DNA of 32,466 nt, from the IMG/VR virus record IMGVR_UViG_3300043640_000116, positions 1 through 32,466 of that record; one strand, written 5' to 3'. Position numbers and translations under genes: made by a program. The stretch comes from a virus. Shown here piece by piece: positions 1 to 26,900 of this stretch (positions are counted from its first letter, which is position 1; every line of letters begins with the position of its first letter). Below the pieces are notes generated by a model, which was given only the letters and a program-made list of their open reading frames with translations, was not told the DNA's origin and ran no database searches.

Positions 1-2091
1 ACGCCTGAGATTGCACAAGCCGCCGCCGATGGCCTCAAGGGTGCTGGTGGTAGCGTCGCCCGCCTTACCGCGCTCATTACCGCTGGCAAGGTAAGCGCAA
101 AAGAATTCTTCAATGCCGTCATCTCTCAGGTTCCCGAGCTTGGTGAAAAGCTGACGCGCCTTGCACCTACCATCAGCGGCGCGTTCGCCGTGTTGAACAA
201 CAGCGTGGTGAACTTCCTTGGTAAGCTGGATCAGAGCAGTGGTGTGAGCCGTGCTTTCGGCAGCGCCATTATCTTCATCGCTGACCACATTGATGCGTTC
301 GCAAAGGGCTTGACCATTCTTGGCATTGCGCTTGCAACCTACTTCGCACCCAGCTTTATCCTCGGCATTGCAACCGCGTTCAAAGCGCTTACCGCTGCAA
401 TGCTGGCGAATCCTTTCACGGCCATTATCACGCTCATCGCTATCATTGTGTCCAGCCTTATATTGTTCAAGGACGAACTGGCCGCTCTCAGTGAGCCTAC
501 CAAAACCGTTATCATTGACATCGCCAAGTTCCTGGATAATGCCGTCGGCATGTTCTACGGCGCGGTGAACGTGATCGGAGAGGCATGGTCGCACCTTGGT
601 CCTATCCTTGGGCATTACATCATCGAGACTGCCAACATTGTTCTTGGTGGAATTCAAAGCCTGATTGACGGTAGTGTGGATCTACTCAATAAATTCAGCA
701 CGTCGTTAGGTGGTGCGGGAACCATTGCGCCGCCCAAGATAGTGCTGGACGATCCTTACAAGGACGCGTTGAAAGATACGGGTGAGGCAGCCGGTAAGGT
801 GTATGCCCAAAGCTTCGGCACGGGCTTCCAGGATCTTGCGAAGAGTGTGCTTAAGCCCAAGGGTGCAGCCGGTGGCGCGGGCGCGAACCTTGACAATCCG
901 CTGGGTAAGCAGGTCGTCACGTTGTCGCAACAGCAACAGAGCAGCTTTGACGCCCTGCTTAAAACGCTTGACCCTGTTCGTAGCGCAATGGTGGAAGTAG
1001 CCAAGGCACAACAGCTCATCAACCTTGCCATGCAAGCCGGTGTTATCACCACGGGTGAAGCTGGTAAGCTGCAACAGTTGCTCGCATTGAAATACAAGGA
1101 TCAGCTGGATCCCCTGCGAGCAGTGAACGTGGAACTTGACCGTCAGACTGCACTGCTCCGCTTGAACAATGACCAGCGCGATGTCCAAAGCCAGCTCTTT
1201 GATCTCACCAAGAAGTTGCGCGAGCAGGGTATTATCCTTGACGCCAGTGAAACCAGCGCTCTCACCAAGAAGCTTGAGTTGCTGCAACAGGTGAACAAGG
1301 AGAGCAAGATACAGGATCAAATTCTCCAGGATATTAAAGGTCCGGCTGAAAGCTATGCCAACACGCTCAAGGTATTAAACCAACTGCTCGCGGACAACGT
1401 AATCAGCACGGTTCAATATAATGAAAAGTTGCTCGACAGCCGCATTGCGTTCCTGGACACTCAGACGGATGCAGCCAGCGGGTTCGAACGTGCTGGCCTT
1501 AAGATGCAGAAGTCAGCGGACGATCTTGCTACCACCATGGAAGAAGGCTTGACGGACGCGGCCAATACCGCCGCCGATGCGCTTGCCAACTTCGCTATGA
1601 CTGGCCAGCTTAACTTCAAGCAGTTGGTGAATAGCATACTCAGCGACATCACCCGCCTTGCAGCCAAGTCCGCAACCAATAGCCTGTTCGGTGGATTGTT
1701 CGGCGGCGGTGGTGGAGGCGGTGGCGGTGGTGGCTTCGGCGGATTGTTCAGCGGCCTGTTCGGTAGCGGTGCGCCCGCTGGTAATGCTATCGGTCCTACA
1801 CAGCAAGGCATCTTCGGAAGTTTGTTTAGCTCGCTTGGCTTTGCCAACACTGGGAGCTTTACTGTCGGCGGAACTGGTGGACCTGATAGTCAGATGGTTA
1901 GTTTCCGTGGATCGCCTGGAGAAACGGTAAGTGTGAACAAGCCTGGATCCGGTGCTGGTGGTAACGGCAACCAACCGAATATCAACTTCTATGTAAGTAC
2001 GCCGGACGCCAATAGCTTTAATCGTAGCCAAGGACAGCTCATGGCTCGCGCACAGGCAAGCATGACCCGCGCTCAACGGAGGAACTCGTAA
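1..2091 (+). CDS. Tail tape measure protein, C-terminal part (5' partial)
   Basis: The reading frame is open from base 1, so the start lies upstream; only the last 696 codons are here. A long hydrophobic stretch at about window codons 106-157 and helical, Gln/Leu-rich sequence afterwards fit a tape measure protein, which sets tail length and helps DNA entry through the host membrane. The C-terminal part (around bases 1530-1760) has the pattern of the lambda tape-measure C-terminal domain: a helix with TMEEGLTDAANTAADALAN, then a hydrophobic segment and repeated GLFGG units. A run of about ten glycines is encoded near 1702-1740. The following tail genes support the assignment. The stop overlaps the next start by one base. 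Confidence 0.85.
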   Translation, partial: TPEIAQAAADGLKGAGGSVARLTALITAGKVSAKEFFNAVISQVPELGEKLTRLAPTISGAFAVLNNSVVNFLGKLDQSSGVSRAFGSAIIFIADHIDAFAKGLTILGIALATYFAPSFILGIATAFKALTAAMLANPFTAIITLIAIIVSSLILFKDELAALSEPTKTVIIDIAKFLDNAVGMFYGAVNVIGEAWSHLGPILGHYIIETANIVLGGIQSLIDGSVDLLNKFSTSLGGAGTIAPPKIVLDDPYKDALKDTGEAAGKVYAQSFGTGFQDLAKSVLKPKGAAGGAGANLDNPLGKQVVTLSQQQQSSFDALLKTLDPVRSAMVEVAKAQQLINLAMQAGVITTGEAGKLQQLLALKYKDQLDPLRAVNVELDRQTALLRLNNDQRDVQSQLFDLTKKLREQGIILDASETSALTKKLELLQQVNKESKIQDQILQDIKGPAESYANTLKVLNQLLADNVISTVQYNEKLLDSRIAFLDTQTDAASGFERAGLKMQKSADDLATTMEEGLTDAANTAADALANFAMTGQLNFKQLVNSILSDITRLAAKSATNSLFGGLFGGGGGGGGGGGFGGLFSGLFGSGAPAGNAIGPTQQGIFGSLFSSLGFANTGSFTVGGTGGPDSQMVSFRGSPGETVSVNKPGSGAGGNGNQPNINFYVSTPDANSFNRSQGQLMARAQASMTRAQRRNS

Positions 2092-2702
2092 TGGCTGATG
2101 GATTTGATGAAGTACGTTTACCGGAGGACATTGAACGTGGCAGCCAAGGCGGTCCTATGTTCAAGACCACCATCATGGATTTAAGCAGCGGCTTTGAGAA
2201 GCGTAATAGCGACTGGAGCGAGCAGCGTTGCAGCTACGACGTAGGCTATGGCATTATGACCAAGGATGATTTCAGCTTGGTGCTTAAGTTCTTCTATGCC
2301 CGCAAAGGCCGCGCCCGTGGCTTCCGCTTCAAAGACTGGAGCGACTTTGAAATGCCTAAGCAGGACATCGGCACGGGTAACAACGTACTCCAAGACTTCC
2401 AGCTCTTCAAGACATACGAGGATGATGCCGCCAGCTACGATCGCGCAATACGCAAGCCTGTTAACGGCACGGTAAAAGTATATAAGAACGACGTGCTCCA
2501 GACCACTGGCTACACCGTGGCCTATGATACCGGCATCGTTCATTTCAATACGCCGGTTGTGCTGGGTGTAGTGGTAAGCGCCGAATGTGAATTCGATGTG
2601 CCGGTGCGCTTTGACAGTGACAAGATGGAAGTAAACGTGCAGACCTTCGAGGCTGGCAGTATTCCGCAGATACCTATTATTGAATTGAAGATACGGTCGT
2701 AA
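2091..2702 (+). CDS. DUF2460 family distal tail protein (GTA gp12-like)
   Basis: A 203-residue protein that I recognise as DUF2460: N-terminal FDEVRLPEDIERGSQGGP, then the characteristic SDWSEQR and a FFYARKGRARGFRFKDWSDF segment. In gene transfer agents and related siphophages this protein forms the distal tail ring joining the tube to the hub. Its position directly after the tape measure and before DUF2163 matches the standard order. It starts on the last base of the tape measure stop codon (TAATG), implying translational coupling. Length is typical of the family. Confidence 0.88.
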   Translation: MADGFDEVRLPEDIERGSQGGPMFKTTIMDLSSGFEKRNSDWSEQRCSYDVGYGIMTKDDFSLVLKFFYARKGRARGFRFKDWSDFEMPKQDIGTGNNVLQDFQLFKTYEDDAASYDRAIRKPVNGTVKVYKNDVLQTTGYTVAYDTGIVHFNTPVVLGVVVSAECEFDVPVRFDSDKMEVNVQTFEAGSIPQIPIIELKIRS

Positions 2703-2703
2703 C

Positions 2704-4509
2704 ATGAAAACCATTTCCATTGATCTCACGGATCACTTAGAAGGCGAGCTCACCAGCCTTTGCACTTGCTGGCATTTGACGCGCCGTGATGCTACCGAGT
2801 TCTTCTTCACCGACCTAGACAGGGACATAACTATTGATGGTGACACATACCTAGCGGCCAGCGGCTACAGTCGCAGCGCCATTGAGAACGACAGCACCTT
2901 GGCAGTGGACAACCTTGATGTGCAGGGCTTCCTTGACGATGACAGTATTACCGAAGAAGATCTACGCGCCGGTCTATTTGATTACGCCGCTGTAAATATA
3001 TTCAGCGTGAATTACGAAGACATCAGCATGGGCATTCTCAAGCAGCGCCGAGGCTTCCTGGGTGAAGTGAGCATGACCAACATTGGCATCTTCAAAGCCG
3101 AGTTGCGCGGTATGAGTCAAACTCTCAGCCAGCGTGTCGGTGAATTATATAGCCCGCAATGCCGCGCCGATCTTGGTGATACGCGCTGCAAGGTTCCACT
3201 GGTTCCGGATTTGTTGCAACGCTCAACAGCCGTTACCCTTGGGCAAGTGTATCGTGTCGCTACTGATACCGGCGCAACCGGACAGGCACAGTATGAGAAC
3301 CGCATGTACGAAGTTACCACGGCGGGAACCACAGCGCCGACCGAACCTACCTACGACACCACTGTCGGCAATCCCACCACCGAGCCAAGCCAAAAAGCCA
3401 CGGCCATTTTACGCATGACCGGCCAGCCAAGCAACGGCCAGTTCATCACCATCGGCAGCAAGAGCTATACCTTTCAGACTGTGCTTACGAACGTGGACGG
3501 TAACGTGCTTATCGGCGCTACCTTCGGCGACAGCTATAACAACCTCCTTGCGGCCACGACGCTGGGAGCTGGCAGCGGCACAACCTATGCCGCGCTTACC
3601 ACGGCACACACCACAGTTGATTTTAGCGGCGCACCTTCGACGGGTGTGCTCACGTTAACAGCCAAGACAGCGGGCAGCGCTGGGAATGCTATTGCGACCA
3701 CTGAGACCTTAAGCAATGCAACTTTCGACAATGCCCAAACACACCTAGCGGGGGGAACAGACGGCGCGGTTCTAACGGCACGAGAAGCCTGGATGCGTAA
3801 TGCGGAAATAGTTCATGTGGACAATCGCAGCACGTTCGGCATCACTGTTGTTGAACCACGCGCCGTCGACGACTGGTTCAATGGCGGCGTTGTCATATTT
3901 GAAAGCGGTGATAATGACGGCCACGTTATTGAAATCCGTAACAGCGACGTCGGTGACAAGGCGAGCAGTGTGCTTACCATTACCGGCCAGCCGAGCGATG
4001 GACAGGTGTTCACGGTGGCGGGTAAGACGTACACCATGCAGAACACTCTCACGAACGTGGATGGTCATATCCACATAGGCGCTAACACCACGGCCACAGC
4101 TATTAATATATTGCGCGGTCTTACCTTAGACGTGACCAATGGTGGCAGCTATGCAGTAGCCATGACCGCGCATACGCTGGTTGACTTCCTCACGGCGGGC
4201 GGTAATAACATACTGGTGCGTTCCAAACTTCCTGGCAGCGCCGCCAATGGTTACGGCACAACTGAGAACCTAAGTAATGCCAGCTTCACCGGTCGGACGC
4301 TTGCCGGTGGTAGCGATCAGGAGATAACCGTGTTTCTACCGCTACCCTTCGCTGCACAGGTGGGAGATCTTTTGCGCTTGTATCCAGGGTGTGATAAAAA
4401 TGATAGCACTTGCCGAGACGTATTTAATAACATTCTCAACTTCCGTGGGGAGCCTTTTGTTCCCGGCCAAGACGAGATCATAAAGTATCCAGATGCCAAG
4501 TCGGGTTGA
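2704..4509 (+). CDS. DUF2163 / phage BR0599-type tail hub protein with two inserted repeat domains
   Basis: A 601-residue member of the DUF2163 (GTA gp13-like) family, which forms part of the tail hub. The N-terminal domain (about 1-200) contains FLGEVS, the region around ELRGMSQTLSQRVGELYSP and the CRADLGDTRC cysteines. The C-terminal family signature lies near residues 555-590: GCDKNDSTCRDVFNNILNF followed by FRGEPFVPGQD. The usual family length is about 270-300 residues. The excess comes from two related domains of roughly 118 residues, at about 236-353 and 421-539, placed in two different loops of the parent fold. Starts one base after the DUF2460 stop; its end overlaps the NlpC/P60 gene by 17 bases. 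Confidence 0.87.
   Translation: MKTISIDLTDHLEGELTSLCTCWHLTRRDATEFFFTDLDRDITIDGDTYLAASGYSRSAIENDSTLAVDNLDVQGFLDDDSITEEDLRAGLFDYAAVNIFSVNYEDISMGILKQRRGFLGEVSMTNIGIFKAELRGMSQTLSQRVGELYSPQCRADLGDTRCKVPLVPDLLQRSTAVTLGQVYRVATDTGATGQAQYENRMYEVTTAGTTAPTEPTYDTTVGNPTTEPSQKATAILRMTGQPSNGQFITIGSKSYTFQTVLTNVDGNVLIGATFGDSYNNLLAATTLGAGSGTTYAALTTAHTTVDFSGAPSTGVLTLTAKTAGSAGNAIATTETLSNATFDNAQTHLAGGTDGAVLTAREAWMRNAEIVHVDNRSTFGITVVEPRAVDDWFNGGVVIFESGDNDGHVIEIRNSDVGDKASSVLTITGQPSDGQVFTVAGKTYTMQNTLTNVDGHIHIGANTTATAINILRGLTLDVTNGGSYAVAMTAHTLVDFLTAGGNNILVRSKLPGSAANGYGTTENLSNASFTGRTLAGGSDQEITVFLPLPFAAQVGDLLRLYPGCDKNDSTCRDVFNNILNFRGEPFVPGQDEIIKYPDAKSG
3409..3762 (+). repeat. Inserted domain copy 1 within the DUF2163 protein
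   Basis: Protein-level repeat, residues about 236-353 of the hub protein. It opens with MTGQPSNGQFITIGSKSYTF, continues with LTNVDGNVLIGA, AGSAGNAIATTETLSNATF and ends LAGGTDG. It matches copy 2 in the same gene motif for motif. It interrupts the family's usual segment between TTVGNPTTEP and DGAVLTAREAWMRN. Confidence 0.8.
3964..4320 (+). repeat. Inserted domain copy 2 within the DUF2163 protein
   Basis: Protein-level repeat, residues about 421-539: ITGQPSDGQVFTVAGKTYTM, LTNVDGHIHIGA, PGSAANGYGTTENLSNASF, LAGGSDQ. It sits between the EIRNSD strand and the EITVFLPLPF strand of the parent domain, a different loop from copy 1. The domain type (TGQP-DGQ, ITIGGKTYTF, LTNVDG) is one I associate with many unrelated phage structural proteins; its function is unknown to me. 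Confidence 0.8.
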
Positions 4510-4915
4510 TATTGTCAATGAAGCGCGTACCTATATCGGAGTTCCATGGCGTCATCAAGGCCGGACTCGGAAGGGGCTGGATTGCATTGGTCTCTTGGTG
4601 GTTGTGGCTCAGAAGCTGGATCTCACTGTTCGTGACGTTGTAGGTTATGGTCGCCGTCCTGAGGGCTTCAACTTCACCGCCCGTTTCAAAGAGGAGATGG
4701 AAGAGATACCGCTCCGTGATATTAAGCCAGGAGATGCCGTAACATTTGCAGATGATAAATTCGTTTGTCATGTTGGCATCGTAACGGAAAAATATGGCAA
4801 GGTGCATATCATCCATGGCCATGCAACGCGCCGCCAAGTTCTTGAAGAAGCATACGAAGGGGAGTGGGAACGTAAAGCCCGCAAAGCCTTTCGTTTCCCT
4901 CAGTTGGAGGATTAG
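4493..4915 (+). CDS. NlpC/P60 family tail-associated peptidase (GTA gp14-like)
   Basis: A 140-residue cysteine peptidase of the NlpC/P60 superfamily. The catalytic Cys is in GLDCIGLL (about residue 31) and the catalytic His in CHVGIV (about residue 95), followed by a polar residue in IIHGHATRR. ARTYIGVPWRHQG at the N-terminus is typical of phage members. Such proteins sit at the tail tip and cleave peptidoglycan cross-bridges during DNA injection. The start lies inside the end of the DUF2163 gene (17-base overlap), and the large tail-tip gene begins four bases after the stop, matching the gp12-gp13-gp14-gp15 order of gene transfer agents. Confidence 0.9.
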   Translation: MPSRVDIVNEARTYIGVPWRHQGRTRKGLDCIGLLVVVAQKLDLTVRDVVGYGRRPEGFNFTARFKEEMEEIPLRDIKPGDAVTFADDKFVCHVGIVTEKYGKVHIIHGHATRRQVLEEAYEGEWERKARKAFRFPQLED

Positions 4916-4918
4916 TAG

Positions 4919-7900
4919 ATGGCTGTTCTTGCAATCGCTGCAATCGGCGCGGGACTTGGTAGCACGGTAGGCTTGACGTCTGTCGGCTGGCTGGTCGGCA
5001 GCTTAATCGGTAACATGCTGTTCGGTCCTAAGCCGCCCTCCACCACTGTAGAAGGTCCCCGCTTGGGCGATCTCACCGTAACGAGCAGCACATACGGCGC
5101 ACCCATTCCCTACGCATACGGCACGGCACGTCTTGCCGGTAATATCATCTGGAGCAGCGGCATCCGCGAACAGAAGAACGTTACCAGCCAGCGTTCAGGC
5201 GGTGGTAAAGGTGGCGGCAAGAAAGCGACGCAGACCACCATCACCTATACTTATTTCTGTAGCTTCGCCGTGTGCTTTGGTGAAGGCGAGGCCGATGGCA
5301 TTATCCGCATATGGGCAGACAGTAAATTAATTTATGATGCGGGTAGCGGTACTGATGTAAGCAGCAACATGGAAGGCCTCATCTTCCGCTTTTACCCAGG
5401 AGATGAAATCCAAACTCCTGATGGTATTATTGTCGCGGACAAAGGCGATAACAACGTACCGGCTTTTCGTGGCCTCACCTACATCGTTATTGATAACTTG
5501 CCGCTGGCTAACTTTGGCAACCGCATTCCCAACATTACGGCGGAGGTGGCGTTCAAACAAGCCACGCCGACATTCCCCGTATTGACATGGACGCCTATCA
5601 ATAGCGCCGTCGCGGGAACCAGCACCAGCGGCGCAAGCATGGCGGCTGACCCTAACCGTGGCATCATCTACACTGGTAAGTTCACAGGCAGCACGGGAAC
5701 CTTAGCGTTGCGCCGGATGCAGTATAACAGCCTGAACGAAGATCGCGTGGTGCTGGACAGTGATATATTTGTTGATAGCGCCGTGGCAGATTTTAGCGCA
5801 TTCAGTAACTTCTTCTGTGGACGCGACGGCTATATTTACGGCAACGGTACAGGCGGCAACAGCAAGAAGATCGTGCGCGTTGATCCCAATAGCTTCAAAG
5901 AGGTAAGCCACTTCGGCAGCTCAAGCAGCGGCACAAGCAACACACCAGTTCGCTTTCCGGCGCTGGGTAATATGGGCATGGCCAGCGCATACGGTCCTAA
6001 TGGCCGCGTTGACTTCCTTATCACTGGCGGCTTCTTCAATCAGGTTGGTGTTCTTAACGCCGCTACGATGACCTATGTATGGGGTGACGGCAAGTCCACC
6101 GACGAACCGCGCTTGCTGGGTATTGTAAGCGGTGACATCTATGACGGCCAAGGCACTGCATACGTTATCGGTGGCGGTACGACCGGCGGACCTGGAACCA
6201 GCGCTACCATCGGCATCTATAAGTTCACCATTGATGCTATAGCTGCATACGATGCAACCTACAGCCTTGTGAGTACCGGCGTCCAGTGGGAAAAACTGGC
6301 CACGCTTAACGCCGCTGACGTAATCCCCACGGCTTCTTTCGTGGCCGGTGGTGTATGCCTTGGCCGTGACCCAAGTGACGGCGGTTTACTTATCGCGACC
6401 ACCGATGACGCTGGCGCACACAGCACCATGTTCAAATGGACAGAGGCTGATGGCATTGTGTGGAAGACGGAAGTGCCGGACTTCTATAACGATACGGTGA
6501 GCGGCATACCAAGCCTGAACCGTATGAACGGCGTGAACTATAGCTGGATCGGCGGCACAGGCACAACCCCGCGCACCATCGACTTACGCACTGGCGAGCT
6601 TACCATCGGCACATCTATCGTCGGCTTAGGTGCAAGCTATCCGCAAATGTTTGATGCTACCAGCAACAGCATTCTTTTCCGGAGCGGAACGGGAGTGTGG
6701 AAAAAGGTATTCCTTGGGCGAGCAGCGGCGGAAGGAGATCAACTGGGAGATATCGTAGTTGACATCTGTCGTCGTGTAGGCTTGGGCGAAGCAGACCTTG
6801 ACGTAAGTGAATTAACGGATATCGTTCCTGGCTTTGTGGTGGGACGCCCAGGAAGCGCACGGGATGCACTGGAACCACTCACCCAAGCGTTCTTCTTTGA
6901 CGGCGTAGAGAGCGATTACTTACTTAAGTTTGTTAAGCGTGGTGTTGAATCAGCACTGACCATTCCGCAAAGTGAGCTTGGCTATGTGGACGATGAGACC
7001 GGCGAATGCTGGCGTGAAAGCCGTACTCAGGAAGTTGAACTGCCAGAGCGTGTGAACGTAATCTACATGGAGCAGGATAACGACTACCAGCAAATGACAC
7101 AGTTTGAAAAGCGTGTGGCGTTGCCTAACCCTACCATGTCCAGCAAGAACCAAACGAACCTAGAACTGCCTATAGTATTGAACGCGGATATTGCCAAGCA
7201 GATCGCTCAGAAGTGGCTGTTCACCAGTTGGATCGAGCGCGTAAGCTATGAATCTATTCTCTCATGGCGTTACTTGTTCCTGGATCCTACCGATGTCGTA
7301 ACGATTGAGTTGGATAACGGTAATACCTTCCTTAGCCGCTTAGTAAAGAGTGACATCGGCGCGAACCTTGCTATCAGTACGAACTGGATTGCCCAAGATG
7401 CAGCCAGCTACGACAGCACGGCGGTCGGCAGCCAAGGCAGCGGATTCCCTGTTCAGGTTCCTCCTGGCAGCGCGTTCACCCGCCTGTTCCTGCTTGACAT
7501 ACCGTTGCTCCGTGACGTGGACGACACTGGCGGCATAAGCAGCCGCGCCTATTACTTCCAGGGTGGCTTCGGTCAAACTGGCTGGCCTGGAGCGTTGCTG
7601 TATAAGTCGCAGGACAATGTTAGCTTCTTGGAGGCCGGTGAAAGCGTTACTGAGGTTGCATGGGGAACCATCCCGACCGCCTTACCCGCGCCGACCAGCC
7701 CGTTCGGCACTGACGAAATAAATACCCTTGATGTATTCATGACCACAGGTGCAGATCGCCTTGAGAGTGTGACCACGCTTGAAATGTTAAACGGCGCTAA
7801 CGCTGCTCTCATTATTAATTCCACTGGCCAGCCTGAGGTCATCCAGTTCCGTGACGTACTTGAGAACGACGATGGCAGCTACACTCTCAGCTATTTGTTA

Positions 7901-8437
7901 CGCGGTCGTCGCGGCACAGACACCTTCTGTGGTGGCCACGTTAACGGAGAAACCTTTATCCTCCTGGAGACTGACACGGCGGAAGCTGTACTCCTTGGGC
8001 TGGCAGAGCTCAACGCTGTGCGCTACTACAAAGGCGTCGGCTTCGGTACGCTGTTCGAGAACGCTGATCTGGAAACCCGCACCAATACAGGCCGCGACCT
8101 TAAACCTTATGCGCCGGTAAACGCCAAGGCTACAATCGTATCTGCCGACCTCGTGTTAACGTGGGATCGTCGCACCCGTATGAATGGCCAGTTGCTTGAC
8201 AGCGTGGGAGATGTGCCGCTTAACGAAGCCACTGAGAGCTATAGCATTGACATTTATAACGGAGCCAGCATTGTACGCACTCTCACTGCAACTTCAGAGA
8301 CAGTGACATATACTGGTGCTAACATTACCACCGACTTAGGTGGCATACCGGCAACGCTGAAATTCGCTGTCTATCAAATCAGCGCGGTCGTAGGTCGTGG
8401 CTTTGGCTACATTAAGACGGTGGACGTAACTTCTTAG
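4919..8437 (+). CDS. Large tail-tip / host-specificity protein (GTA gp15-like) with a propeller-like insertion
   Basis: 1172 residues. The N-terminus (1-216) is the usual start of phage tail-tip proteins: a hydrophobic, Gly-rich segment, then STYGAPIPYAYGTARLAGNI, a Gly/Lys loop (94-103) and YTYFCSFAVCFGEGEADGI. The conserved tail_3-type domain resumes near residue 600 (GDIVVDICRRVGL, then SARDALEPLTQAFFFDG) and runs through LRGRRGTDTF. The C-terminus (about 1060-1172) looks like a fibronectin/Ig-type beta domain. Residues about 217-600 are foreign to the core and contain repeated short beta units (for example DPNRGIIYTGKF, GRDGYIYGNG, NGRVDFLITGGF, GQGTAYVIGGG), resembling a beta-propeller. 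The protein likely forms the central tail tip that contacts the host. Confidence 0.85.
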   Translation: MAVLAIAAIGAGLGSTVGLTSVGWLVGSLIGNMLFGPKPPSTTVEGPRLGDLTVTSSTYGAPIPYAYGTARLAGNIIWSSGIREQKNVTSQRSGGGKGGGKKATQTTITYTYFCSFAVCFGEGEADGIIRIWADSKLIYDAGSGTDVSSNMEGLIFRFYPGDEIQTPDGIIVADKGDNNVPAFRGLTYIVIDNLPLANFGNRIPNITAEVAFKQATPTFPVLTWTPINSAVAGTSTSGASMAADPNRGIIYTGKFTGSTGTLALRRMQYNSLNEDRVVLDSDIFVDSAVADFSAFSNFFCGRDGYIYGNGTGGNSKKIVRVDPNSFKEVSHFGSSSSGTSNTPVRFPALGNMGMASAYGPNGRVDFLITGGFFNQVGVLNAATMTYVWGDGKSTDEPRLLGIVSGDIYDGQGTAYVIGGGTTGGPGTSATIGIYKFTIDAIAAYDATYSLVSTGVQWEKLATLNAADVIPTASFVAGGVCLGRDPSDGGLLIATTDDAGAHSTMFKWTEADGIVWKTEVPDFYNDTVSGIPSLNRMNGVNYSWIGGTGTTPRTIDLRTGELTIGTSIVGLGASYPQMFDATSNSILFRSGTGVWKKVFLGRAAAEGDQLGDIVVDICRRVGLGEADLDVSELTDIVPGFVVGRPGSARDALEPLTQAFFFDGVESDYLLKFVKRGVESALTIPQSELGYVDDETGECWRESRTQEVELPERVNVIYMEQDNDYQQMTQFEKRVALPNPTMSSKNQTNLELPIVLNADIAKQIAQKWLFTSWIERVSYESILSWRYLFLDPTDVVTIELDNGNTFLSRLVKSDIGANLAISTNWIAQDAASYDSTAVGSQGSGFPVQVPPGSAFTRLFLLDIPLLRDVDDTGGISSRAYYFQGGFGQTGWPGALLYKSQDNVSFLEAGESVTEVAWGTIPTALPAPTSPFGTDEINTLDVFMTTGADRLESVTTLEMLNGANAALIINSTGQPEVIQFRDVLENDDGSYTLSYLLRGRRGTDTFCGGHVNGETFILLETDTAEAVLLGLAELNAVRYYKGVGFGTLFENADLETRTNTGRDLKPYAPVNAKATIVSADLVLTWDRRTRMNGQLLDSVGDVPLNEATESYSIDIYNGASIVRTLTATSETVTYTGANITTDLGGIPATLKFAVYQISAVVGRGFGYIKTVDVTS

Positions 8438-8448
8438 GAGTACATAAC

Positions 8449-8802
8449 ATGAGCGCTAAAACAGACACGATCCAATACGATAAGTCCGCTAAGATTGTAG
8501 CTGGACAGGATACCAGTGACGTCGTAGATCTGGAAGATACCCTGCTTGCCGGTATCTTTGTTCCAACCGGCTTCCAAGGTACTCGGGTTGATGTACTTAT
8601 TGGCCAGAGCAATAACGTGGACAGCTTGCAGCAACTCGTTGATGAAGAGGGCGACCCCGTTGGATTTGATATTGGTAACGACGGTGTTGCAATAACGCCG
8701 GACAGCCTAAGCAAGTTCGCGATGGTGCGCTTCTTCGCGTTGCAAAGCGACAGCACCGAAAATGCTGACCGTGTAATTGATATCGCAAGGATCAAGCGCT
8801 AA
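8449..8802 (+). CDS. Conserved phage tail-region protein, unknown function
   Basis: 117 residues, acidic, mostly predicted beta strand with no signal peptide or membrane segment. The sequence (YDKSAKIVAGQDTSDVVDLE, then GIFVPTGFQGTRVDVLIGQS) resembles small beta-rich proteins encoded after tail-tip genes, possibly a chaperone-like or decoration component of the fibre. An AGGAG at 8436-8440 sits upstream of the start. Its stop overlaps the next start by one base, so it is probably translated with the receptor-binding gene. I do not recognise a named family. Confidence 0.75.
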   Translation: MSAKTDTIQYDKSAKIVAGQDTSDVVDLEDTLLAGIFVPTGFQGTRVDVLIGQSNNVDSLQQLVDEEGDPVGFDIGNDGVAITPDSLSKFAMVRFFALQSDSTENADRVIDIARIKR

Positions 8803-9983
8803 TGAATAAACTGCTCCGACAGGAAATAATCAATGGTGCTTCCGCTGGTGGCGGTGGTGGTGTTGCGCCTGTGTGGAACCTTACCGGCGATGAGCTGGAT
8901 GGTGAAACAGTTGGAGCATTCGGCGGCTTAACCCTGGACGTTACATTTGACAGTGGAACAGGAACCTTTGAACTTGCAAGCGGTGGCTTGCCCTCTGGCA
9001 TAAGTCTCGTAGGTGATGAGCTTACTGGTTCCTTTGATGCCGAAGGTGCATTCAGCTTTACTCTACGCGCCATTGATGACAGCACTGGCGCACATGCGGA
9101 ACTTGCCTTTGGAGGAACAATAGCGGCAGCGCCGGACGTCCCTTTGTTAGACGCCTTAAGTGGCGTGGCATCGGCGGCATACTCCTTGCGCTTGCTGTCG
9201 GCGGACTATACTGGCGACTGCATTAAGGTACGCCGTAGCAGTGACGACGCTGAGCTGGACATTCCTATCGTGGATGGCTGGATGGATGAAGACGCACTCT
9301 TGGCGCATTGTGGCGCGGGTGACGGCTTCATAACTGTGTTCTACGACCAGTCTGGTAACGGTCTTGACCATACGCAAAGCAACGCCGCCAAGCAACCTCA
9401 GATCGTGGATAGTGGTGTTGTGTGTGACGGCTTTCTATGTGACCCAAGCGCCGTTTCTTTTATGCGAGATGAGGGCGCAAGCTATAATAATTATTTTACT
9501 CGCAGCGCATATACTTCATGCCTATGCTTTAAGCCTACTGCAATCACCAACCACAATAAGAGTCAGGTGGCATGGGGTGACGGTAGCGCATGGGCTGGCT
9601 TGCCGGTATATAGCACGAATGTCGACAATGGTAACGGTCCTCCATACGCTGTGGCCATGTGGCATGAAGGCGATGCCGCCGCTGACCAGTATTGCATCCA
9701 GCCCTTCGCCGCGTTGAACGAAGTGCTTGGCAGCATTGGCATCTATGGCAGTAACCAGTTCGCCCATTACTTAAACGATAACGACTTGGTTACGCTGGCC
9801 GGTACTGACATCTTCGCTGGTGCAATGAGCAGCGACCCCGCCTTCCCCAGCCGTGGAAACAGCGGCATCGCTGGAAGCTACTATGAACGTATTATGTTCA
9901 AGACGGCGATTGACGATAACGATGTAAACATAATCGGCAATAGTTGGAATGCCGCTTACGGTATGCCATGGAGTGACATCTAA
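8802..9983 (+). CDS. Putative receptor-binding/fibre protein with an arabinofuranosidase-B-like domain
   Basis: 393 residues. Residues about 20-108 look like a putative-Ig (He_PIG-type) domain: GGLPSGISLVGDELTGSF followed by FSFTLRAIDD. From about 112 on, DALSGVASAAYSLRLLSADY, IKVRRSSDDAELDI, HCGAGDGFITVFYDQSGNG and the later NIIGNSWNAAYG match a pattern I know from phage fibres annotated as alpha-L-arabinofuranosidase B catalytic-like (a concanavalin/LamG-like fold). In phages this part most likely binds, and perhaps trims, host glycans; hydrolase activity is not shown by the sequence. Starts on the last base of the previous stop codon. Confidence 0.7.
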   Translation: MNKLLRQEIINGASAGGGGGVAPVWNLTGDELDGETVGAFGGLTLDVTFDSGTGTFELASGGLPSGISLVGDELTGSFDAEGAFSFTLRAIDDSTGAHAELAFGGTIAAAPDVPLLDALSGVASAAYSLRLLSADYTGDCIKVRRSSDDAELDIPIVDGWMDEDALLAHCGAGDGFITVFYDQSGNGLDHTQSNAAKQPQIVDSGVVCDGFLCDPSAVSFMRDEGASYNNYFTRSAYTSCLCFKPTAITNHNKSQVAWGDGSAWAGLPVYSTNVDNGNGPPYAVAMWHEGDAAADQYCIQPFAALNEVLGSIGIYGSNQFAHYLNDNDLVTLAGTDIFAGAMSSDPAFPSRGNSGIAGSYYERIMFKTAIDDNDVNIIGNSWNAAYGMPWSDI

Positions 9984-21663: not shown

Positions 21664-22557
21664 ATGCGTATCAATGACTTCTACACGTTTCTCAGGAAAC
21701 GTGAAAGCATAAGGCTTGCCAAGTTGCAGGGAAAACCCTTCCCATGGACGGACGACCCCGTGCTGCGAGAATATAAATTTACTAACGTGCGCCGCGAGCA
21801 TGACCGTACTACCCAGGAACTTATCCAGCGGTTTTACAGCAAGCAGGGTCAGACGAGTGACCTACGCACCATATTATTTAATTGCGCCCTGTTCCGCTAT
21901 TTTGGGACGTACGAGTTCGCTACTGCCTTGGGCTGGCAGGACGGGCTTAACGGCGACCATATCAAGAAGCTGGCAGCACAGCGCCTCGCCGCTGGTGAGC
22001 GTGTGTTCACCGGCGCATATATCATCACCAACCAAGGGATTAAAGCGCCCAAGGAAGAGGTGGTGGTTGACATGTTCTTAACCCCGCTGTGGCAAGCCAG
22101 CAAGCGCCTTACCGAGTTCATGCTGTTCACGGAAGGCAACTGGAGCGACACCACCAATGAATTGCAGAAGTTGCAGGGCTTCGGTGGAAGCGGGTTTATG
22201 GCCAAGGAAACATTGCTTGACACTATGCACTGTGCCTTCTGGCCTAAAGGGTTGCCTTCGGACTACGATACGTTCACGCCTATCGGTCCGGGAGCAAGAC
22301 GGGGGATCAACCGTGTGCGGGGAGCACACATTGATTCTCCGTTGAAATTCTCCGCCATGTTGGATATCATCCGGGAGCTGACGGCGGCGCAAAGTGATAA
22401 GCCGGCCAGTATGCAGCCGGACCGCAACTGGCCGGAGGCATGGGGTAAGCTGGCTCCAACGGATATCCAATTCCAGTTGTGTGAGTTTGATAAATATGAA
22501 CGAGTACTGCATGGCGAAGGTAAGCCTCGCAGCCGCTATAAACAGAGGGGAAAATAA
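21664..22557 (+). CDS. 5-hmdU DNA kinase helical-domain / amino-acid:DNA transferase family protein (DNA hypermodification)
   Basis: 297 residues. The hallmark N-terminal block is present: DFYTFLRKRESIRLAKLQG, then PFPWTDDPVLREYKFTNVRR (26-45) and EHDRTT. The C-terminal half has GFGGSGFMAKETLLD (172-186), a helix-hairpin-helix-like turn followed by Asp, and GPGARRGINRV (208-218). This is the all-helical, glycosylase-like fold described for the aGPT-PPlase / HMUDK-helical group in thymidine-hypermodifying phages, where relatives act on 5-(hydroxymethyl)uracil already in DNA. No P-loop is present, so this is not the kinase itself. The next gene is a glycosyltransferase. The exact reaction (base recognition, transfer, or replacement of an activated group) cannot be told from sequence. 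Confidence 0.75.
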   Translation: MRINDFYTFLRKRESIRLAKLQGKPFPWTDDPVLREYKFTNVRREHDRTTQELIQRFYSKQGQTSDLRTILFNCALFRYFGTYEFATALGWQDGLNGDHIKKLAAQRLAAGERVFTGAYIITNQGIKAPKEEVVVDMFLTPLWQASKRLTEFMLFTEGNWSDTTNELQKLQGFGGSGFMAKETLLDTMHCAFWPKGLPSDYDTFTPIGPGARRGINRVRGAHIDSPLKFSAMLDIIRELTAAQSDKPASMQPDRNWPEAWGKLAPTDIQFQLCEFDKYERVLHGEGKPRSRYKQRGK

Positions 22558-25272: not shown

Positions 25273-25845
25273 ATGAAATCAGAGAAGCTGACATCAGCAA
25301 TACGCTCACGTCTTCTGGAGGCGGTGCTGGACCATAGGTTCGCGCCGGAAGAGGAAGAGAACCTACTGGAGCAGCGTCGTATCGCTGTGGCAGTTTACGA
25401 GGAAGTGTTTCCTGTGGAAACACGCCGCAAGATGCTTGCCCTGCCCGCTGGCTGGCTGGCAACCATTGATTATGTCCATGCACAGTTCAGCGAGGACAGC
25501 GGCGACTATGAACACATGGCGCTCCCCACTGGTGACGGCCTTGAGTGGAGAGCACCCTACGACAAGCAACGCGGCTGCATGATTAAGTATGACGCCGACA
25601 GTGAAATGAGTAAGCGCTTTAAACTGTGGAAGGAACAGAAGCAGTCGCTTTACCTTGCCAGCAAGGAGCTTAAATTTAAGACCAAGTCGGTGCTTGATAG
25701 TTGCACCACTACCAACCGACTCATTAAAGTATGGCCGGAGATACAGCCATTCTTATTGAAGGCAATGCCGGAAACGAATGTGTTCCTGCCCGCGCCTATC
25801 ATAAACGATTTAACAACAGCCCTTAGACTGGAGGAAGCAGCATGA
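25273..25845 (+). CDS. Nmad5-like putative nucleotide-modification-associated protein
   Basis: 190 residues. MKSEKLTSAIRSRLLEAVLD at the start, an acidic/Gln-rich helix, RIAVAVYEEVFPVETRRKML, then LPAGWLATIDYVHAQF (about 56-71) and a C-terminal helix with SKELKFKTKSVLDSCTTTNR and KVWPEIQPFL. The order (helix, VYEEVFP, LPxGWL, beta-rich centre, SxxTTxxLxxxWPE) matches my memory of the Nmad5 family found in phage base-modification loci. Its biochemical role is not known. It has an AAGGGGAGAG SD (25261-25270) and overlaps the TS-like hydroxymethylase by four bases, supporting functional coupling. Confidence 0.6.
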   Translation: MKSEKLTSAIRSRLLEAVLDHRFAPEEEENLLEQRRIAVAVYEEVFPVETRRKMLALPAGWLATIDYVHAQFSEDSGDYEHMALPTGDGLEWRAPYDKQRGCMIKYDADSEMSKRFKLWKEQKQSLYLASKELKFKTKSVLDSCTTTNRLIKVWPEIQPFLLKAMPETNVFLPAPIINDLTTALRLEEAA

Positions 25846-26900
25846 GAACTATCAACGTAAGAAACGTCCACGAAGCACTACCCGAAGGAATGCGCCTCCT
25901 GGCAACACAAGGCTATAAGCGTGAGAGTCGTTACGGTGACGTAATGAAAATCGCCGGACCAGTTACCACCGTTTATCGTAACCCGATGGAGCGTGTAATC
26001 TTCTGGCCTGAACGCGATGCCAACCCATTCTTCCATCTCATGGAAAGCCTGTGGATGGTGCAAGGTCGCAACGACGTTAAGTTCGTAGCGCAATTTGCCA
26101 AGCGCATGGAAACATTCAGCGACGACGGCAAGACCTTTCATGGTGCGTATGGCCACAGGTGGCGCAACTGGTTCAAGCGTGACCAAGTGCTTGAGATTAT
26201 TGAAATTCTCAAAGCTAACAATGCCGACCGCCGTTGTGTGCTGCAAATGTGGGACGCTACCAAAGACCTTAACAAGCAGGGTAAAGATGTCCCGTGCAAC
26301 GTAGTGGCCTTCTTCACTATTGAAAATGGTGCGCTGAACATGGGTGTTATGAACCGCTCCAACGATATGATCTGGGGTGCGTATGGTGCTAACGCCGTAC
26401 ACTTCAGCGTCCTGTTAGAATTCATGGCGGCGGGCATTGGTGTTCCCGTGGGTGCTTACTGGCAGATGTCGTGGGACTACCATGCTTATCTCAACACGTT
26501 TGAGCCGCTGCTTGGCCTTATAGATAAGTCCGCCGACCCCTATCGCACGTTGCCTCGCAGCCCGTACGAAGCTGGAGAAACCATGATTACTAAAGTGGTG
26601 GACGAGCCTATTAAAATATGGCTGGAAGACCTTGAGATGTGGTTCCACGATCCCAACACTGTAGGGCTTCGCAGCAAGTTCTTCCGCCGTGTTGCCACAC
26701 CGTTGTTCCAGGCACATGCCGCCTATAAGCAAAAGGATTATGACGGTGCGAATGAAATCCTCGACCAGTGTTTAGCCGGTGACTGGAAGACCGCTTGTAA
26801 GCAGTGGTTCGAACGCCGCGCACAGGCACGGCTTGCCAAGCACCTTAAAGAGCTGGACGACGAAGCCGCTGGCGCGTCCACCGACAATGGAGGCGAGTGA
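25842..26900 (+). CDS. Thymidylate-synthase-family enzyme, putative dUMP hydroxymethyltransferase
   Basis: 352 residues. Nucleophile C152 in KDVPCNVVAFF; phosphate-binding R130-R131 in DRRCVLQMWD; RSNDMIWGAYGANAVHFSVL (172-191); and SWDYHAY near 210-216. The residue aligned with the uracil-reading Asn of thymidylate synthase is N184 in YGAN, whereas dCMP hydroxymethylases have Asp there, so dUMP is the likely substrate. The RSNDMIWGAYGANAVH version of the motif, rather than the usual TS RSCD-LG-PFNI, is what I associate with phage hydroxymethylases. The expected reaction is dUMP plus methylene-tetrahydrofolate plus water to 5-hydroxymethyl-dUMP. A true thymidylate synthase cannot be excluded. 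The C-terminal 50 residues are charged and extended. Confidence 0.78.
   Translation: MRTINVRNVHEALPEGMRLLATQGYKRESRYGDVMKIAGPVTTVYRNPMERVIFWPERDANPFFHLMESLWMVQGRNDVKFVAQFAKRMETFSDDGKTFHGAYGHRWRNWFKRDQVLEIIEILKANNADRRCVLQMWDATKDLNKQGKDVPCNVVAFFTIENGALNMGVMNRSNDMIWGAYGANAVHFSVLLEFMAAGIGVPVGAYWQMSWDYHAYLNTFEPLLGLIDKSADPYRTLPRSPYEAGETMITKVVDEPIKIWLEDLEMWFHDPNTVGLRSKFFRRVATPLFQAHAAYKQKDYDGANEILDQCLAGDWKTACKQWFERRAQARLAKHLKELDDEAAGASTDNGGE

Follow-up and report, generated by a model that had tools for sequence, protein, structure and literature searches.

The window, by which we mean the whole stretch of 32,466 nucleotides of viral DNA that was analysed, contains a run of tail genes in the order DUF2460, hub, NlpC/P60 and megatron, and the hub gene bears two copies of a single domain, designated d1 and d2. 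The genes, and the successive parts of the hub (residue numbers are those of the hub protein), are arranged as follows.

2091–2702, plus strand: neighbouring distal tail protein (DUF2460; PF09343, 1.9e-69), without a copy of the domain
2704–4509, plus strand: DUF2163/TIGR02218 tail hub gene, 601 aa, bearer of d1 and d2
2722–3195, plus strand: attachment domain, unbroken, residues 7–164, including C153 and C162 (PF09931)
3208–3390, plus strand: first part of a module of about 60 residues, residues 169–229, missing from minimal hubs and enclosing d1 (from segment lengths across hubs)
3391–3765, plus strand: inserted domain copy d1 at site 1, residues 230–354 (from the repeat, HMM and AF2 model)
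3766–3798, plus strand: end of the nested module, residues 355–365, ...TAREAWMR (from alignment with empty-site hubs)
3799–3954, plus strand: core of the oligosaccharide-binding domain between the insertions, residues 366–417 (a separate piece of the 12-hub core profile)
3955–4320, plus strand: inserted domain copy d2 at site 2, residues ~418–539 (from the repeat and spacer length)
4321–4506, plus strand: C-terminal part, residues 540–601, with the last strands, C563 and C570, and the clip segment (PF09356)
4493–4915, plus strand: neighbouring NlpC/P60 tail peptidase (PF00877, 1.1e-07)
4919–8437, plus strand: neighbouring megatron-like tail protein (PF13550, 5.6e-33; PF23666, 7.6e-21)

The hub and its two repeated segments

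A Pfam scan of the hub protein gave matches to PF09931 (residues 7–164, 5e-56) and, in two stretches, to PF09356 (BR0599; 1e-22), the best of these stretches aligning residues 538–590 with profile positions 28–80. The protein also matches TIGR02218 (8.9e-59) and, among solved structures, the hubs of RcGTA (6tba_7A, 6.7e-44) and R4C (9.6e-34). Together these matches identify it, by sequence, as a tail hub of the gene-transfer-agent type. According to the accessible parts of the published accounts (PMC7296036, PMC10276861), the RcGTA and R4C hubs are composed of attachment, Fe-S (two segments, four cysteines), oligosaccharide-binding and clip parts, and the Fe-S role assigned here to the four cysteines of the window hub (C153, C162, C563 and C570, invariant in all nine hubs aligned) is taken from the same accounts. 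The window hub resembles these hubs (Rcc01696; 6tba, 8gtc) in all four respects – attachment, four-cysteine Fe-S, oligosaccharide-binding and clip – but theirs are 296 and 291 aa long and carry neither inserted domain. Since both d1 and d2 fall between the cysteine pairs C153/C162 and C563/C570, neither disturbs the attachment domain, the metal site or the C-terminal clip, and both lie, by analogy, in what corresponds to the oligosaccharide-binding domain of the RcGTA and R4C hubs.

Over residues 231–353 and 419–538 the two copies are identical at 58 of 123 positions (47%; BLASTP 2e-27), and their alignment score of 261 compares with a mean of 43.8 (sd 7.6, maximum 78) over 2000 shuffles. The preliminary description had placed the copies at about residues 236–353 and 421–539, a few residues away from the boundaries given by the predicted fold (230–354 and ~418–539), and every motif it listed as common to the two (TGQPS-GQ, LTNVDG, GSA-N, TTE-LSNA and LAGG-D) was found. 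A domain HMM matches d1 at residues 241–352 (122 bits); no third copy was detected by this HMM among window ORFs of at least 60 aa. The hub gene contains no long DNA repeat (the best is 21 nt at 81%), and d1 and d2 are thus not a fresh duplication. Base composition was considered as a marker of foreign origin and set aside, G+C of d1 (57%) and d2 (55%) giving no clear signature against the N part of the hub (52%) and the window (52%).

A further gene of the tail region (8802–9983) encodes a protein that weakly matches an arabinofuranosidase-type family (PF09206, 8e-7, residues 124–197) and has a putative Ig segment.

Two insertion points and the hubs that lack them

A core profile of 353 positions, built from 12 hubs without inserts, aligns with the window hub in three pieces: residues 1–233, 332–436 (by eye reliable at about 355–413) and 537–599. 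The pieces run on once d1 and d2 are skipped, and hubs with empty sites exist (L002 and L110 among them), which bears out the earlier proposals that the parent fold is interrupted at two distinct points and that the family core is continuous without the inserts.

At site 1, d1 is nested in the module of about 60 residues that precedes the oligosaccharide-binding domain, a module itself missing from minimal hubs. The stretch from the attachment domain to the next landmark measures 26 aa in minimal hubs, about 94 aa where the module is present and 216–224 aa where module and domain are both present (220 aa in the window), and reaches 455 aa in hubs with unrelated inserts; in this comparison 5 of 89 hubs were dropped, and the landmark of L165 is misplaced (78). 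A CBM5/12-like identity was considered for the module and set aside, the Pfam scan of the hub having returned no CBM5/12 match for it.

At site 2, d2 is inserted in a turn of the oligosaccharide-binding domain, between the core strands ...VIEIR and TVFLPLPF. Between the ...E[IV] strand and the GCD motif the window hub has a spacer of 150 aa; of 99 distinct hubs, the remaining 98 have 18–33 aa there (84 of the 99 have 30 aa), a count that leaves out the 20 of 119 hubs in which the pattern used found no landmark. The window hub thus shows a clean gain of 120 residues. Consistent with this, PF09356 is unbroken (1–80) in L110, L106, L002 and L008 and split by d2 in the window hub. A wider hub alignment split the d2 gap of the window and was not used for the site 2 counts.

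Among the matches listed, site 1 is filled by the domain in 8 of 119 distinct hubs (the window, L036, L106, L107, L108, L109, L200 and L201), a proportion that is over-estimated because the hubs were retrieved by their similarity to the window protein. Site 2 is filled in the window hub only, again among the matches listed (99 distinct hubs with both landmarks).

These lengths bear on whether the two segments might simply be integral to the DUF2163 fold, a reading to which we attach almost no credence. No support for it was found; the 220 aa of the window at the first site compare with 26 in minimal hubs, the second site holds 18–33 aa against 150, and the RcGTA and R4C hub chains are 296 and 291 aa long. 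The preliminary description had named a single integral domain of all DUF2163 proteins as the outcome that would overturn it; this is excluded, most hubs lacking both segments and d1 being predicted to fold on its own.

Other, unrelated inserts occupy the same hub region in L002, L004, L006, L008, L129 and L149, that of L008 being Laminin_G_3 (3e-18). Unrelated inserts across hubs mark the region as a general insertion hotspot.

Fold, kinship and spread of the domain

Modelled alone from 95 sequences (itself and 94 other copies), d1 was predicted by AF2 with pLDDT 96.7 and pTM 0.89 as a series of strands, a main helix (46–58) and further strands; a single-sequence model of the whole hub (pLDDT 32) was not used. 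On this model the domain is autonomous, of about 120 residues, and beta-rich with one main helix. Family members are 32–59% identical to d1, and the near-invariant residues (Y27, T28, L33, G38, N52, Y67 and G96) look structural from the alignment, in which no conserved candidate ligand site was seen.

Neither d1 nor d2 has a convincing match to a Pfam, PHROG or NCBIfam domain model, and for the 95 family members no convincing Pfam model emerged (best E 0.0098, among the best 25 of 56 families), while 33 of the 95 match PHROG 28344, a family of unknown function (best 7.1e-8). A Foldseek search of the PDB with the d1 model gave no significant solved structure (12 matches, E 1.6–9.7), and the domain profile, searched against PDB sequences, found nothing beyond two matches at chance level. 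Of the 104 Foldseek matches of the same model in BFVD, 12 reach E <= 1e-3; PhiJL001 gp68, a major tail protein and a major capsid protein are among these.

The highest VIA Z scores are those of sheath insertion domains (6.7–8.3 over 79–103 residues; cyanophage A-1(L) 8.3, Milano 7.9, phiTE 7.4, Mu 7.1); tail proteins of T7-type podophages stand among and below these (6.3–7.4), followed by FliD (5.1–5.7). Matches at Z near 8 may reflect just a common arrangement. Comparison of profiles by hhalign aligned the family with seven sheath domain II sequences over 82 columns (E 2.8e-5, probability 74%), with a common TLTAk-G--GN motif; with one 7-7-1 sheath the alignment covered 21 columns (probability 1.4%). 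The family may be a remote relative, in fold and in sequence, of tail sheath domain II (PF17481; Milano, 7-7-1, Mu), but the Pfam model itself (Phage_sheath_domII) is matched by 1 of 95 members (E 0.017, below the gathering score) and by neither the window hub nor d1, and the family occurs in many hosts that are not sheaths. Likeness to the D2-type domains of FliD and flagellin (Z 4.0–5.7; weak matches of 3 of 95 members to Flagellin_IN, PF07196, best 0.054) is weak on both measures, and FliD and flagellin are not virion proteins. Tail-sheath domain II and flagellar-cap-like folds are the nearest putative kin of the domain.

The domain recurs well beyond the hub. Among stretches carrying the pattern, 13 of 61, 153 of 242 (80 kept) and 4 of 18 encoded it in three scans, and the domain HMM located 125 domain stretches in the 103 ORFs of the collected loci. 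After masking of the domain, 102 ORFs fell into 50 host clusters (blastp, E < 1e-5; L021, a cut copy, was left out of clustering and trees). ORFs were defined from stop to stop; some come from one contig that was retrieved twice, and PHROG 290 or 3287 recurs in several clusters, so truly unrelated folds number fewer than 50. Judged by the longest member of each cluster, the domain lies inside the host protein in 32 of 50, near the start in five, near the end in six and almost alone in seven, counts in which the stop-to-stop definition may overstate the flanks.

Carriers include a tail sheath (L009, PF04984), a tail tube (L013, PF18906), the DUF2460 protein of L109, the megatron of L105, the tube family phrog_290 and the head/packaging family phrog_3287; 10 of 20 further representatives matched no PHROG family at 1e-3. 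The suggestion that this is a mobile domain of phage structural proteins is thereby upheld: it recurs inside unrelated sheath, tube, distal tail, megatron and head proteins. The mark of a mobile decoration domain, the same domain in several unrelated virion proteins, is thus seen over the 50 host clusters. Tail tubes carry the domain at no fewer than two points, namely the N-terminal arm (L013, L055 and the cultured Stenotrophomonas phage Sonora) and a more internal loop (the cultured phage DoCa5 and L094), with the tubes of Xp15 and R26L lacking it. On some contigs (L024, L033, L035, L049, L082, L108 and L109) copies occur in two genes that adjoin each other.

One ORF (L017:619-4992 and L049:1622-6217) holds eight copies, largely in tandem, where the rest of its protein family has a single copy. 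A megatron-like protein on a Planctomycetota contig (L105:3382-6924; PF13550, Rcc01698_C) has two copies near its C-terminus, and a protein from a bacterial genome (L103:5572-7896, Bradyrhizobium contig), which clusters with tail sheaths, has two copies and part of a third.

Bacterial genomes seldom carry the domain; within one class it was present in 3 of 385. Searches of the phage collection by tblastn with d1 and d2, and likewise with a generic query, returned nothing at 1e-3, but a more typical member from L048 found four records (E up to 0.1); the failure of d1 and d2 as queries thus reflects divergence and not absence.

History of the copies and a possible role in adhesion

Trees were built from 105 and from 47 copies (117 columns), with many forks unresolved. 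In both, d1 and d2 group with the L106/L201 copy with support values of 97/88 and 97/86, and within this group d2 is placed with L106; d1 and d2 as sisters are not rejected (p 0.32). A single clade for all nine hub copies is rejected (AU p 0.0035), and there are other hubs whose copies group with non-hub proteins. If the two copies were a native repeat, produced by duplication inside the hub gene, capture from outside would be needless. The supported group and the p value for sisterhood agree with such a history, but the rejection of one hub clade, the kinship of other hub copies with non-hub proteins and the wide occurrence of the domain outside hubs speak against it; we consider it quite unlikely as a general account, and it probably explains solely the filling of the second loop. 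Rejection of one hub clade points to repeated capture: site 1 was probably filled more than once in this way. The close kinship of d1 and d2 indicates that site 2 was probably filled from within the hub lineage. In L108 and L109, where both the hub and the gene upstream of it carry copies (DUF2460 in L109; by position in L108), these copies are not nearest kin in the tree.

Taking these data together, we propose, with a probability of about 0.6, that d1 and d2 are copies of a mobile accessory surface domain that projects outwards and adds weak, multivalent contacts with the envelope. Recombination would carry a domain of about 120 residues into loops that tolerate it, in many virion proteins of phages. 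Given that the homologous hub of RcGTA is trimeric, six copies would be displayed at the tail tip of the window phage; most likely these would project outwards from the oligosaccharide-binding part as accessory surface modules and make contacts, weak but multivalent, with glycans on the cell surface or with other components of the envelope. The adhesive role is modelled on phage Ig-like domains and on the oligosaccharide-binding domains of RcGTA, and the surface exposure of d1 and d2, and with it their status as decoration, is likewise argued by analogy. In the available parts of the respective sources, the RcGTA hub domain is thought to bind oligosaccharide (PMC7296036) and accessory sheath domains are proposed to aid adhesion or stability (PMC9230969). 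Counting against adhesion is the presence of the domain in tail tube and head proteins, where such a role is less obvious.

The same distribution can be read in favour of a structural element, one that would serve as padding or cement between adjacent subunits, or as a shield for the particle, and would be retained because it stabilises the virion. The domain does occur in tube, sheath and head proteins, and cementing is offered as a role of extra sheath domains (PMC9230969, in the part available); most hubs, however, possess the same core and do without the domain, and both hub copies sit between the cysteine pairs, in the equivalent of the oligosaccharide-binding domain of RcGTA and R4C. We see this as a lesser, though real, possibility. 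Slightly more doubtful is near-neutrality, under which loops tolerate the domain, recombination supplies it and it drifts with no defined job. Such a reading would suit the low prevalence (8 of 119 distinct hubs among the matches listed; 3 of 385 genomes of one class) and the lack of a visible conserved ligand site, but an open, well-folded domain has been kept across 50 host clusters at 32–59% identity to d1, and extra coding is costly for a phage. Occurrence in tube and head, with no ligand site seen, leaves room for either cementing or neutrality.

The adhesive surface domain can be extended, tentatively, to a universal virion plug-in: phages would take up the domain time and again, at different loops of hub, distal tail, sheath, tube and head proteins and at times in more than one gene of a genome, and it would provide the same low-affinity, high-avidity sticking whatever the host protein, with capture from outside at site 1 of the hub and intragenic copying at site 2. 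This wider version is conceivable, but we hold it with less confidence than its opposite.

Domains of this kind are already known, as promiscuous Ig-like domains, modules of evolved Dit proteins and extra sheath domains. Phage Ig-like domains are accessory beta domains, exchanged horizontally among head and tail proteins and proposed to bind carbohydrate weakly (Fraser et al. 2006, as reported in the accessible parts of PMC9230969 and PMC10276861). The present family also consists of accessory beta domains that have spread to both head and tail proteins, but it has a helix between strands, is often internal (32 of 50 clusters) and has no convincing match to an Ig-family Pfam model among the best 25 of 56 families, where one of 95 members matched fn3_5 (0.013) and one ScpA_C (fibronectin III; 0.047); the window hub has no Ig-type Pfam match. 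In evolved Dit of lactococcal phages, as far as the available part of the source goes, carbohydrate-binding modules are inserted in a conserved ring protein of the tail tip and aid adsorption. Host protein and domain both differ from ours, and function has been studied in Dit, whereas here we infer it.

The family itself appears to be uncatalogued: a literature search (open PMC; titles and starts of abstracts) returned no paper recognisable as describing it. A sequence family without a Pfam model joins the short list of promiscuous phage decoration domains, and with the domain HMM many virion proteins now called 'hypothetical' could be annotated in part. The hubs constitute a natural experiment, in which the same core carries zero, one or two copies, at two points, alongside relatives with empty sites; the role of decoration domains is thereby directly testable by deletion and binding assays.

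Elsewhere in the window are a gene with a 5-hmdU DNA kinase helical domain (21664–22557; PF18723) and a thymidylate-synthase-like gene (25842–26900), a gene content that suggests a phage with hypermodified thymine in its DNA.
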